Origin: Fimbriimonadaceae bacterium
GTDB lineage: Bacteria; Armatimonadota; Fimbriimonadia; Fimbriimonadales; Fimbriimonadaceae
Reading direction: 5' to 3'
Length of the DNA stretch: 45,084 nucleotides
Assembly (NCBI GenBank): GCA_020847855.1
Contig: JADLBH010000013.1
Coordinates: forward strand, 1 to 45,084
Shown: positions 2,604-19,406 of the stretch, one piece after another
Position numbering within the stretch: the stretch's first letter is position 1
Layout: each line of letters begins with the position of its first letter
Made by a program: the position numbers and the translations under genes
The notes under the pieces: generated by a model
What the model was told of the DNA's origin: nothing
The model's input: only the letters and a program-made list of their open reading frames with translations
Databases searched by the model: none

Positions 2604-3119
2604 ATGCCGGTTGCCCTGGGCAGTTTGAAACTGATGGACGGGTCGCTGACCACCACGGCGGAACTGACCTCGCGCGGATCGCTCGCCTTGGTGTTTCTGC
2701 GGCACCTAGGTTGCGTTTTCTGTCGCCGCTTGATCGCACAGTTGAACCGGTACTCTGATTGGAACGTAGCCTTGGTCGTGCTCGCAGTACCAGAGGACGC
2801 CCGCGCGTACTTCGCGACCCACCCTACGTCGTTTCCGGTCGTTTGCGACCCTGAAGCCCGGCTGTACTCCACTTTGGGGCTGAGGCGGGGTGGGATGTCG
2901 GCGGTAGCCTCGCCTCGGGTGTTCGGCCGTGCGATCGCAGCTTTGGCTGGTGGCGCGGGGATGGGCCGGGTCACCGGCGACCCGATGCAACTGGGCGGGG
3001 CGTTTGTGCTCGACGCTGGACAAGAGCTCGTCTGGCATTACCGGTCCGTGGATGCGGCCGACAACCCTTCGGTGGAGGAGATCGGTCGCGCGCTAGGGCA
3101 GGTCGTCGCAGGAGGGTAG
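2604..3119 (+). CDS. AhpC/TSA-like (peroxiredoxin-like 2 type) redox protein
   Basis: A 171-residue thioredoxin-fold protein. The strand LALVFLRHLGCVFCRRLI carries a CxxC-type motif (CVFC) at the position of the AhpC/TSA or PRXL2 active site. It is followed by a thioredoxin-like fold (VALVVLAVPEDARAYF, then a PVVCDPEARLYSTLGL segment typical of this family). It probably reduces peroxides or disulfides in the cytoplasm, because no signal peptide is seen. The ATG at 2604 is preferred over an upstream in-frame ATG inside the sigma gene, since the fold begins only after 2604. Its 3' end overlaps the convergent IMPase-family gene by 27 bp. The family is fairly sure and the substrate unknown. Confidence 0.75.
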   Translation: MPVALGSLKLMDGSLTTTAELTSRGSLALVFLRHLGCVFCRRLIAQLNRYSDWNVALVVLAVPEDARAYFATHPTSFPVVCDPEARLYSTLGLRRGGMSAVASPRVFGRAIAALAGGAGMGRVTGDPMQLGGAFVLDAGQELVWHYRSVDAADNPSVEEIGRALGQVVAGG

Positions 3120-3818
3120 GACGATGAACGGCTCGATCGGGGTTGGCCGGAGCCACTCCGACTCGTCGAGGAGCCGGCCGTCCGCGTGCCTCGCCTCTGC
3201 TCCGAGACTCCGAAGGATCACGAGGCTCGCGGCAGCGTCGTAGAGCTTGCACCGCGACGAGGTGAAGGCCCGCAACATGCCGCGGGCCATGAACATCGCC
3301 TCGACGACGAACGAGCCGAGATGGCGGCTCTTGCCCATCGTGGGGAAAGGGTCGTCGTTCTCGCCGACGGGCTCGTGCTTCGCGATCGGGGTGGCGAGGA
3401 GGTCTGGCAATGGTTCGCCGTTGCAGGTCGGACGATGGCCGCGCTGCCCGCAGAGCAGCCACCCGAGCTCGGGTAGGGCCACGACTCCCAGTTCGAGCCT
3501 GTCCCGGCAATAGAGCCCGGCGCTCGTGCCCCACAAGGGTTGGCCGAAGGCAAAGTTTGTCGTGCCGTCAATAGGGTCCACGAGCCAGATCCCTTCTTCG
3601 CCTTGTTCGACGTACCCGCCCTCCTCACCCCAAAACGTGGTTCCCGGCGAAGCGTCCAGGAGCCCCTGGCGAAGGACTTCCTCGGCGGCGAGGTCGGCGC
3701 TCGTGACCAAGCTTCCATCCGGCTTTGTGTTCGTCTTCAGCTCGCTCCGGAGGGCCAGGGCCGTCGCGGCGGCGTTCTCGACGATCTTCGCGACGGTTGG
3801 GAGCAGGGCCGGGTTCAC
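3093..3818 (-). CDS. Inositol monophosphatase-family phosphatase
   Basis: A 241-residue Mg-dependent sugar phosphatase. The metal-binding signatures are complete: WGEE (residues 63-66), DPIDGTTNF (81-89), and near the C-terminus LYDAAASLVILRSLGAE, which is the WDxAAgxli motif with Leu-Tyr in place of Trp. Family members hydrolyse inositol-1-phosphate, histidinol-phosphate or 3'-phosphoadenosine phosphates, and the sequence does not say which. The start is GTG at 3818; TACTTT lies 5 nt upstream, so a leaderless transcript is possible. It is convergent with the redox gene before it and divergent from tRNA-Gly. Confidence 0.88.
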   Translation of the reverse strand: MNPALLPTVAKIVENAAATALALRSELKTNTKPDGSLVTSADLAAEEVLRQGLLDASPGTTFWGEEGGYVEQGEEGIWLVDPIDGTTNFAFGQPLWGTSAGLYCRDRLELGVVALPELGWLLCGQRGHRPTCNGEPLPDLLATPIAKHEPVGENDDPFPTMGKSRHLGSFVVEAMFMARGMLRAFTSSRCKLYDAAASLVILRSLGAEARHADGRLLDESEWLRPTPIEPFIVLPSCDDLP

Positions 3819-3894
3819 GAACGAAAGTATGGCCCTTGGGACCCGCGTACACCGGACCCGCGAGGCACGGGCGGGTATATTCCCACCGGAGCGG

Positions 3895-3969
3895 GCGGGA
3901 ATAGCTCAGTGGTAGAGCATCTCGTTGCCAACGAGAGGGTCGAGAGTTCGAATCTCTTTTCCCGCTCCA
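3895..3969 (+). tRNA. tRNA-Gly (GCC)
   Basis: A full cloverleaf can be drawn. The acceptor stem is GCGGGAA/TTCCCGC, the D arm GCTC/GAGC, the anticodon stem TCTCG/CGAGA with loop TTGCCAA (anticodon GCC), and the T arm GAGAG-TTCGAAT-CTCTT. The discriminator is T and the CCA end is encoded (3967-3969). Confidence 0.97.
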
Positions 3970-4058
3970 AGCTTTGCTCCCTCCTGGCGGAGGTCGAGTC
4001 CCAGGGCTTGCGGAACGCGGGTACGCGAAGTGCGTTCCCCCGGTATTGGAGAACTACG

Positions 4059-4661
4059 ATGAGACTCGCTCCTCTATGCACACTTCTCGCCCTCGCGCTC
4101 GGTGCCCACGCCGCCCTTGCCCAGAGCAAACCGTTCAAGATCGGTGCTGGAAGCCAGACGCAGCAGCTTGCCCAGATGGAAAGCTCGGCCGACTTTGAGA
4201 CCTTCACCGGTCGGACGGACAAGGTCACGGGCGCGATCCAATTCGACCCTCAAGCTCACAAGGGAAGTGGCAAGATCGTGGTGGACGCTGCCTCGATTGA
4301 TACCGGCATCTCCCTTCGCAACGAGCACATGCGCTCACCAGCTTGGCTCGACACCGCGCAGTACAAGACGATCACGTTCGAGACGTTGAACGTCCGCAAG
4401 ACCGGCACGGACACTTACAAGGTCTATGGGAACTTCACGATGAAGGGGGTGACCAAGAAGATCACGACGACCGTGACCCTGAAGTATCGGCAGGAGAGCG
4501 AGGCCACCCGGAAGGCAGGTTTCAAGGGGGACGTCGTGCAGGTCAGAACGAGCTTCGAGATCAAGCTGGCGGACTATCTTATTGACGTTGCCAGGCTGGC
4601 CCATGGCAAGGTCTCGGACACCGTCACCATTTCGCTCGCGGTTTACGGTCAAACTGGCTAG
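4059..4661 (+). CDS. YceI family secreted lipocalin-like protein
   Basis: A 200-residue exported protein. A signal peptide (MRLAPLCTLLALALGAHAALA, cut after AQA/ALA) is followed by a YceI-type beta-barrel, which in this family binds polyisoprenoid or other amphiphilic molecules. Family hallmarks visible are the alternating beta strands, FETFTGRTDKVTGAIQFDP, ASIDTGISLRNEHMRSPAWL, YKTITFET and GNFTMKGVTKKITTTVTL. The start is the ATG preceded by GGAGAACTACG; the same frame is open further upstream but runs through the tRNA and is not coding there. A small membrane protein and an esterase follow within 3 bp and by overlap, so the three probably form an operon. Confidence 0.88.
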   Translation: MRLAPLCTLLALALGAHAALAQSKPFKIGAGSQTQQLAQMESSADFETFTGRTDKVTGAIQFDPQAHKGSGKIVVDAASIDTGISLRNEHMRSPAWLDTAQYKTITFETLNVRKTGTDTYKVYGNFTMKGVTKKITTTVTLKYRQESEATRKAGFKGDVVQVRTSFEIKLADYLIDVARLAHGKVSDTVTISLAVYGQTG

Positions 4662-16742: not shown

Positions 16743-17795
16743 GTGAACATCGGCCTGCTCCAAGAACTCACAGAAGCCCACGGCATCCCTGGGAACGAAG
16801 GGATGATCCGTGCGATCGTCAAGCGCGAGCTCGGGGGGATCTGCGAACTCGAAGTGGACTCGATGGGAAGCGTGATCGCCCGGAAGGCCCCCACGAAACC
16901 TGGGTCCGGGCGTCGGGTCATGCTCGCCGCCCATATGGACGAGATCGGCTTCGTCGTGAAGCACATCAGCGACAAGGGCTTTCTTCGAGTCCAACCCTTG
17001 GGCGGTTGGGACCCAACGCAGATGGCGAGCCAGCGGGTCTTCGTCCATACCCAGTCGGGGAAGTTGAACGGGGTCCTCACCCAGAGCAAGAAGCCCAAGC
17101 ACATGCAGACTCCGGGCGATGCGAACAAGGCCCCGACTACCGACGACTTCTTCCTGGACATTGGTTTGAGCGGGGAGGCGGCCCAAGCTCAGGTCCAACT
17201 CGGCGATATGGTGACCATGAACCGGACGTTCCAGACGATGGGAGATCTTTTCACCTGCAAGTCCATGGACGACCGTGCGGCGGTCTTCGTGATGATCGAA
17301 GCGCTGAAAGCGGCGGGCGAGCACTCTGCGGAGATCTTTGCGGTTGCGACAGTTCAAGAGGAGGTCGGCTTGCGGGGAGCGGCGGCATCGGGCAGCAGGA
17401 TCGCCCCCGACGTGATGGTCGCGATTGACGTCACGCTCGCCAACGACATCCCCGGCCTACCGGACGAGCTCGCGGTCACAAAGCTGGGCAAGGGAACGGC
17501 GATCAAGTTTATGGACAGTTCGCTCATCTGCCATCCCAAGGTTTTCGGCCATTTCCGCTCCCTGGCCGAGAACCACAAGATCCCGTACCAAGTGGAGGTG
17601 CTCCCGGCTGGCGGGACCGATGCGGGGGCCGTGCAGCGCCTCCATGGAGGGGTGCCTTCGTTCACGCTCTCCATCCCTACGCGGTATATCCATACGGTGA
17701 ACGAGACTGTGAACAAGGGCGATGTCCAGGCGTCTGTGGACCTCCTCGCCCGGTTCATCGAGACGGTAGGCGAGGCCGATTACTCGCTCGACTGA
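16743..17795 (+). CDS. M42 family metallopeptidase (glutamyl/deblocking aminopeptidase)
   Basis: A 350-residue cytoplasmic aminopeptidase with two metals per active site. The M42 signatures are present: AAHMDEIGFVV (first His-Asp), KSMDDRAAVFVM, QEEVGLRGAAASGSRI (catalytic Glu-Glu), DVTLANDIPGL, PAGGTDAGAVQ and TRYIHTVNE (last His). Members form dodecameric tetrahedral complexes that trim peptides after the proteasome or Clp proteases. The start is GTG at 16743. Confidence 0.93.
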   Translation: MNIGLLQELTEAHGIPGNEGMIRAIVKRELGGICELEVDSMGSVIARKAPTKPGSGRRVMLAAHMDEIGFVVKHISDKGFLRVQPLGGWDPTQMASQRVFVHTQSGKLNGVLTQSKKPKHMQTPGDANKAPTTDDFFLDIGLSGEAAQAQVQLGDMVTMNRTFQTMGDLFTCKSMDDRAAVFVMIEALKAAGEHSAEIFAVATVQEEVGLRGAAASGSRIAPDVMVAIDVTLANDIPGLPDELAVTKLGKGTAIKFMDSSLICHPKVFGHFRSLAENHKIPYQVEVLPAGGTDAGAVQRLHGGVPSFTLSIPTRYIHTVNETVNKGDVQASVDLLARFIETVGEADYSLD

Positions 17796-17869: not shown

Positions 17870-18319
17870 ATGAACGTCAAGACATGGACGGCTTGGACGG
17901 CCGTCGGTATTTTCGCGGCGGTTTACGTGGTGGCATGCAGCCCCCCGGCAGAGCCGCAAAGCGCGCCAGCACCCGCGGCAGGTGAACCCGAGATCACGCG
18001 CCAAGAGGTCGTGCCTGGTTCCGATGCGTCCTCTCGGTCCGATACCAAGGCGACGGGGCCATCTACTTCCAGCAGCGAACAGGTCGTGGCCAAGGTCGCA
18101 ACCCTGCACGTGCCGGGCATGACGTGAGCCACCTGCCCGGACACTGTCCGATCCATCTTGGTCAAGATGGAAGGTGTGAAGAAGGCCGTGACCGATGGCA
18201 AGTCGCTCACCGCGACCGTGGACTTCGACCCTTCGGTCGTTACGGCCGAAGAGATCGCGAAGGGGCTGGGCAAGGCGAACGCCCGTTACAAGGCGACAGT
18301 TCGAGAAGTGAGTCAGTAG
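17870..18319 (+). CDS. Candidate selenoprotein: HMA-domain lipoprotein with Sec-x-x-Cys (in-frame TGA)
   Basis: Read through the TGA at 18125-18127 the gene encodes 149 residues; a conventional gene caller would stop at 85. Residues 1-22 are a lipoprotein signal with lipobox VVAC, followed by a Ser/Ala/Pro-rich linker. A complete heavy-metal-associated domain then follows. Its metal site reads LHVPGMT-[TGA]-ATCPDTV where the family has GMTCxxC, so residue 86 would be selenocysteine in a UxxC pair with Cys89. Downstream of the TGA the frame stays open and keeps the HMA pattern (SILVKMEGVKKAVTDGKSL, TATVDFDPSVVTAEEIAKGL) to a TAG at 18317-18319. A SECIS-like stem-loop sits at 18152-18171. The alternative is a Cys-to-stop nonsense mutation. 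HMA proteins bind Cu, Hg or Zn; UxxC suggests a redox or soft-metal role at the outer face of a membrane. Confidence 0.75.
18152..18171 (+). promoter_or_regulatory. SECIS-like stem-loop 3' of the in-frame TGA
   Basis: An 8-bp perfect stem (TCCATCTT/AAGATGGA) closes a 4-nt loop GGTC (18160-18163). The loop begins 32 nt after the TGA, inside the spacing accepted for bacterial SECIS elements, and starts with GG-U, the kind of loop SelB recognises in Escherichia coli fdhF. It lies inside the coding sequence, as bacterial SECIS elements do. Confidence 0.7.
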
Positions 18320-18419: not shown

Positions 18420-19406
18420 ATGCGCTCGCACCTCTTGCTGGCTCTTCTCGTCGTAAGCCTGGGTTGTGGCCCGCAGGGTGGCTCGAAGCCGACCTCGGGC
18501 GAGACGCCGCGAGAGAAGCCGTTCAAGGTCGCGTTGCTCACTCCCGGCCCCATCAGTGACGCAGGCTGGAGCGCCCTCGCTTATCGGGGCCTGGAGGCGG
18601 TCGAGAAGGAGCTGGGTGCGGAGGTCAACCAACAGCAAGCGACGGACGCCCAGATCAAGGATGCGATGCGGAGCTACGCCCAAGAGGGCTACGCGCTCGT
18701 CTTCGGCCATGGCTTCGAGTACAACGCGCCAGGGGTCGAGGTAGCGAAGGACTTTCCGGCGACAGTGTTCGTGAGCAGCTCGGGCGGCGAGTCCTCGGCC
18801 AACGCCGGGGCCTTTCGGTTCCTCCTTGAAGAAGGCTTCTATCTTGCAGGGATGACGGCGGGGAGCCTGACGAAGTCGGGGACGGTCGCGATGATCGGCG
18901 GGCCGGACGTGCCCAGCATCCGCTCGACGTTCAAGGCTTTCCGAGCTGGGGCTGAGGCGGGTCGCCCCGGAATCCGAGTCATCGAGACGTTTACGGGCTC
19001 GAACGACGATGTCGCCAAGGCGAAGCAGGCGACCGCGGCCGCGATCAGCCAAGGTGCCGACTATGTGATCCACCAGGCGAACGCGGCGGCGCAAGGCGTG
19101 TTCGATGCTTGCAAGGAGGGCGGCGCCAAAGCTTTCGGCTCCAACAGCGACCAGAATTCGAACCCAAGCGGGGTGGTGATCGCATCGGCGGTCATCGTAG
19201 CGGAGCCCGCGTTCGTGGCTCTGGCGAGGCGCGTGAAGGAAGGACAATATCACGGAGGAATCGAGACCATGCGCATGGCGGACGGGGCGATCTCTTTTGT
19301 CTGGGGGGACGCGATGGAGATCCCTGGCGCGGTGAAGGCCAAGATTGAGGCGGCCCAGAAGGACATCGAGTCTGGAAAGCTCTCAGTGCCCTACGATCGG
19401 TTCTGA
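18420..19406 (+). CDS. BMP-family ABC transporter substrate-binding lipoprotein
   Basis: A 328-residue lipoprotein (lipobox SLGC) of the Bmp/PnrA/Med family, which usually captures purine or other nucleosides. Family features include KVALLTPGPISDAGWSALAY, YALVFGHGFEYNAPGVEVA, EGFYLAGMTAGSLTKSGTV, YVIHQANAAAQGVFDA and the closing KLSVPYDRF. Four tightly spaced genes follow: one ATPase, two permeases and a PTPS-fold protein, so this is the receptor of an importer. The exact ligand cannot be read from sequence. Confidence 0.9.
   Translation: MRSHLLLALLVVSLGCGPQGGSKPTSGETPREKPFKVALLTPGPISDAGWSALAYRGLEAVEKELGAEVNQQQATDAQIKDAMRSYAQEGYALVFGHGFEYNAPGVEVAKDFPATVFVSSSGGESSANAGAFRFLLEEGFYLAGMTAGSLTKSGTVAMIGGPDVPSIRSTFKAFRAGAEAGRPGIRVIETFTGSNDDVAKAKQATAAAISQGADYVIHQANAAAQGVFDACKEGGAKAFGSNSDQNSNPSGVVIASAVIVAEPAFVALARRVKEGQYHGGIETMRMADGAISFVWGDAMEIPGAVKAKIEAAQKDIESGKLSVPYDRF

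Follow-up and report, generated by a model that had tools for sequence, protein, structure and literature searches.

A TGA-containing HMA lipoprotein gene

The window (the whole stretch of DNA analysed here, 45,084 nucleotides) comes from a 2.53-Mb, 97% complete assembly of Fimbriimonadaceae-type Armatimonadota (G000). Between an M42 aminopeptidase gene and a gene for a PnrA/Bmp-type ABC substrate-binding lipoprotein, it contains a plus-strand frame encoding a predicted lipoprotein signal peptide, a low-complexity linker and a heavy-metal-associated (HMA) domain, interrupted by a single in-frame TGA (Table 1). The PnrA/Bmp-type gene starts a separate transporter operon and lies outside the finding described here. 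Eighty-five residues precede the TGA and 63 follow it, GC3 is 0.72 upstream and 0.78 downstream, and no strong Shine–Dalgarno sequence is obvious ahead of the ATG. A gene call under translation table 11 yields a product of 85 residues ending at the TGA, as an earlier, sequence-only reading of this DNA had anticipated, and ordinary annotation thus cuts the lipoprotein ahead of its sole domain.

Table 1 Features of the locus, with positions in the window.
Feature	Position	Strand	Basis or comment
M42 aminopeptidase gene, conserved upstream neighbour (synteny marker)	16743..17795	+	
Probable HMA-domain lipoprotein selenoprotein gene, 149 residues	17870..18319	+	ATG at 17870; codon 86 is TGA, translated as Sec; ends with TAG at 18317–18319
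Predicted lipoprotein signal peptide, lipobox V-V-A-C (residues 20–23)	17870..17938	+	Translation inspected; lipobox Cys23 at 17936–17938
HMA domain, residues 78–136, beta-alpha-beta-beta-alpha-beta fold	18101..18277	+	Pfam, AlphaFold model, MerP fold match
In-frame TGA, probable Sec, at first metal-site position (GMTUATC)	18125..18127	+	
Cys89, predicted second metal-site ligand	18134..18136	+	Invariant in 5/5 orthologues
SECIS-like hairpin, 8-bp stem, GGUC apical loop	18152..18171	+	Fold and covariation
PnrA/Bmp-type ABC substrate-binding lipoprotein, downstream neighbour	18420..19406	+	

With the TGA translated as selenocysteine (Sec, U), the domain matches Pfam HMA (PF00403) at 6.1e-13 and 49.4 bits, above the gathering cut-off of 24.8, and an AlphaFold model based on the five orthologous sequences shows the element order expected of the HMA fold, with pLDDT values of 77–91 over this part of the chain. 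The best match of the model in the PDB was MerP (1osd; TM-score 0.90 by target length), and a profile search of solved structures likewise placed MerP first among single-domain chains. The sequence-only reading had put the TGA at the first cysteine of the GMTCxxC metal site and had the frame and the domain continuing past it; both points were confirmed, the read-through translation giving GMT-U-ATC. Inspection of the translation indicated a probable signal peptide and lipobox cysteine of the bacterial lipoprotein type. A similar signal and lipobox are present in three of the orthologues described below (G010, G091 and G007); the fourth (G001) has no lipobox cysteine, so lipid anchoring is not universal among them.

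Orthologues and coding selection downstream of the TGA

The lipoprotein gene was found in 5 of 85 family genomes (the source assembly, G010, G091, G001 and G007), adjoined by the M42 aminopeptidase gene at all five loci. The metal-site codon is TGA in the first four of these genomes, with motifs UATC, UASC or USSC, and TGC in G007. Homologues had been predicted to carry Cys at residue 86, which proved true of one, the other three having TGA as in the window; a close homologue combining TGC with a broken frame, named beforehand as grounds for abandoning the selenoprotein interpretation, was not encountered, the TGC orthologue being full-length with its frame intact. Where the orthologues diverge beyond the TGA, most of the changes sit at third codon positions (for example, 12/13/27 in comparison with G010), which indicates coding selection on this part of the frame. 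A search of 291 genomes of the phylum with a strict GMT-TGA-xxC-P DNA pattern returned the four TGA orthologues and one further match, in G173, which we rejected as a chance occurrence because stops break the frame on both sides and the match does not lie in an HMA gene.

These comparisons bear on a rival reading of the locus, that the TGA is a true stop and the gene an 85-residue fragment or pseudogene, as annotation under table 11 would have it. We consider this highly improbable, because the TGA is shared by four species in three genera and followed by coding selection, which also led us to reject a pseudogene or sequencing error, because the sole orthologue with TGC is full-length, and because the genome encodes Sec machinery and the gene a covarying hairpin, as set out below.

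A hairpin that accompanies the TGA and is lost with cysteine

Bacterial SECIS elements commonly have a small apical loop containing G (PMC1088965). The sequence-only reading had proposed such an element here, and a perfect 8-bp stem closing a GGTC loop (TCCATCTT-GGTC-AAGATGGA) was indeed found shortly after the TGA, with 32 nt from the TGA to the first loop base. Only two perfect hairpins with an 8-bp stem and 4-nt loop occur on the plus strand of the 45-kb window, this one included, and the background rate of 8-bp hairpins with G as the first or second loop base is about 0.00012 per position. Compared with shuffles, the 63-nt stretch folds with unexceptional energy (z = -1.5; -0.6 to -1.8 across the Sec forms), so the hairpin alone is weak evidence; what makes it strong is its comparative behaviour.

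The hairpin is identical in the Sec orthologues G010 and G091. The more divergent G001 has GCCACTCT-GGTC-AGAGTGGA, in which three base pairs differ by compensatory changes on both sides, the GGUC loop is unaltered, the outermost stem pair is broken and the residues encoded over the hairpin also differ (ILVKM to TLVRV). For the hairpin, 96.9% of cells are paired, compared with at most 59% in slid controls, the covariation itself coming from the one divergent sequence. The Cys orthologue in G007 has no hairpin. Presence with Sec and absence with Cys is the pattern expected of a bacterial SECIS, and together with the covariation it argues strongly for that identity. A shared GGUC loop was also sought in selD and in the TGA-bearing genes of contig C20 of the source assembly (see below) and was not clearly found.

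Selenocysteine machinery of the genome

A check for selA, selB, selD and tRNA-Sec had been suggested as a test of the selenoprotein interpretation, and all four were found in the source assembly. The tRNA-Sec scores 69.5 bits and is called by ARAGORN as tRNA-SeC (tca), with anticodon UCA; selA scores 435 bits and selB 317 bits, the latter over its cut-off; and selD carries an in-frame TGA at its canonical catalytic site (SCAGUAGKLG). Because all of these are encoded, UGA is very likely decoded as Sec in this genome. The selD product (G000:C10:43359-44279; SCAGUAGK) is itself a selenoprotein. The tRNA-Sec gene is also present in the remaining TGA-bearing genomes and in the Cys-bearing G007, and is missing from three relatives without the lipoprotein gene, one of which is only 72% complete. 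As G007 keeps the Sec machinery, its Cys form without hairpin and the Sec forms make a natural pair.

Hairpins are generally able to stimulate read-through, and an ordinary amino acid might therefore be inserted at the UGA, by near-cognate suppression or a partial change of code, with the hairpin acting merely as a stimulant. We regard this as the least probable of the readings considered, since a tRNA-Sec with a UCA anticodon is encoded along with selA, selB and selD, since selD likewise has TGA at its Sec site, and since the TGA in the lipoprotein gene falls on a cysteine that does not vary across the HMA family.

Taken together, the Sec machinery, the TGA/TGC pattern among orthologues and the covarying hairpin uphold the selenoprotein interpretation made at the outset: the gene very probably encodes a selenoprotein with HMA identity. 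Its UGA at codon 86 is almost certainly decoded as Sec in the manner these sequence features predict, with SelB and tRNA-Sec acting on the codon under the guidance of the GGUC-loop hairpin downstream.

Proposed role in soft-metal binding

The predicted product is a lipid-anchored, extracytoplasmic HMA protein facing away from the cytoplasm, in which Sec86 and Cys89 would hold a soft metal ion on the exterior side of the membrane, for example Hg(II), Cu(I) or Cd(II). The bound metal might then be sequestered or buffered, or be handed to an export or uptake protein (a transporter). By analogy with the HMA/MerP family and from the chemistry of Sec, the selenolate would have a higher affinity for soft metals and a lower pKa than the thiolate of Cys, and on these grounds we think it probable that the UxxC pair binds soft metal and sequesters or delivers it.

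A real rival is that the protein is a selenoprotein whose U–C pair works not in metal binding but in thiol/selenol redox chemistry, either disulfide reductase-like or peroxide-reactive. A UxxC motif in a prokaryotic selenoprotein most often belongs to a redox protein (PMC13188914, PMC1088965), and in the window no metal-export or other metal-transport gene adjoins the lipoprotein gene. A redox role nonetheless appears unlikely, because the fold is HMA (ferredoxin-like), with MerP and not thioredoxin as its nearest relative, and because the GMTCxxC loop is a standard metal site. If metal binding is the correct reading, Sec is employed here in a metal-binding loop rather than in a redox enzyme, and the Sec and Cys orthologues, with the hairpin present or absent to match, offer a clean test of what selenium contributes to metal binding.

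As for which metal, no full-score MerA occurs in the five genomes with the lipoprotein gene; mercury detoxification through MerA was therefore rejected, and we do not claim a mercury-specific role. In the source genome, contig C10 also encodes a P-type ATPase with an HMA domain and contig C20 carries a mer-like operon; no link from either to the lipoprotein gene was found.

A mer-like operon elsewhere in the genome

The apparent operon on contig C20, outside the window, comprises in order an ArsR regulator, a MerT-HMA fusion (Cys form), a secreted candidate UxxC HMA protein, an AhpD/CMD protein and two genes with multiple in-frame TGAs. In the secreted HMA protein (L173 1813-2328, G000:C20), the first metal-site position is encoded by TGA (GMT-U-GGC); its homologue in G052, a genome of the same taxonomic order, also has TGA at the metal site (GMS-U-GCC), together with a stem whose loop starts GGUC. 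One of the last two genes (L173 about 2837-3643) has in-frame TGAs at SPT-U-GEC and PG-U-RLYSGG, and the other (L173 about 3661-4300) encodes a secreted product with SG-U-PI-U-P just past its signal peptide. Pfam and NCBIfam gave no significant match for either gene, and the two are possible new multi-Sec selenoproteins. Considering the C20 operon beside the UxxC lipoprotein, we suggest tentatively, and as less likely than metal binding by the lipoprotein itself, that some Fimbriimonadaceae may keep an extracytoplasmic set of selenoproteins for soft metals, in which Sec would serve mainly as a metal ligand and not as a redox catalyst.

Comparison with known HMA-type selenoproteins

The sequence-only reading described UxxC HMA/MerP-like selenoproteins as already reported in environmental data, and such proteins are indeed known: a Sec form of MerP was reported from GOS data (PMC2398784, Table 2), and a 2026 review lists the UxxU metal-binding family NF041115 (PMC13188914, Table 1) and a UxxC cation P-type ATPase with the domain ID TIGR01525 (PMC13188914). 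A literature search of partial coverage found no selenoproteins described in this lineage. A lipid-anchored, single-Sec UxxC HMA protein in this lineage thus appears undescribed, and the gene adds a well-supported selenoprotein to a phylum with none described in the literature searched. For each NCBIfam model that it matched, the window protein scores under the curated cut-off.

Its best NCBIfam match is NF041115 (UxxU_metal_bind; 52.9 bits, E 3e-14, curated cut-off 95). Both are small, HMA-like, metal-binding proteins by family with Sec in the metal motif, but NF041115 has two Sec residues in a UxxU motif, whereas the window protein has one in UxxC, as do the other Sec orthologues, and it differs further in its long N-terminal linker and lipobox. 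The HMA-like C-terminal part of NF045683, a MerT/CopZ fusion-like heavy metal transport selenoprotein, matches at 29 bits, far under the cut-off of 375; that family is a membrane transporter fusion. The UxxC P-type ATPase (TIGR01525) shares the UxxC motif in a heavy-metal protein but is a multi-domain ATPase, in contrast to the stand-alone lipoprotein described here. MerP (TIGR02052; 49.3 bits, curated cut-off 92.55) is the closest in fold and in solved structure (1osd, 1afi), being like the window protein a periplasmic single HMA domain with a GMTCxxC site; the window protein differs in lying beside M42 peptidase and PnrA-type ABC transporter genes rather than in a mer operon, in its predicted lipid anchor and in having Sec at the first ligand position.
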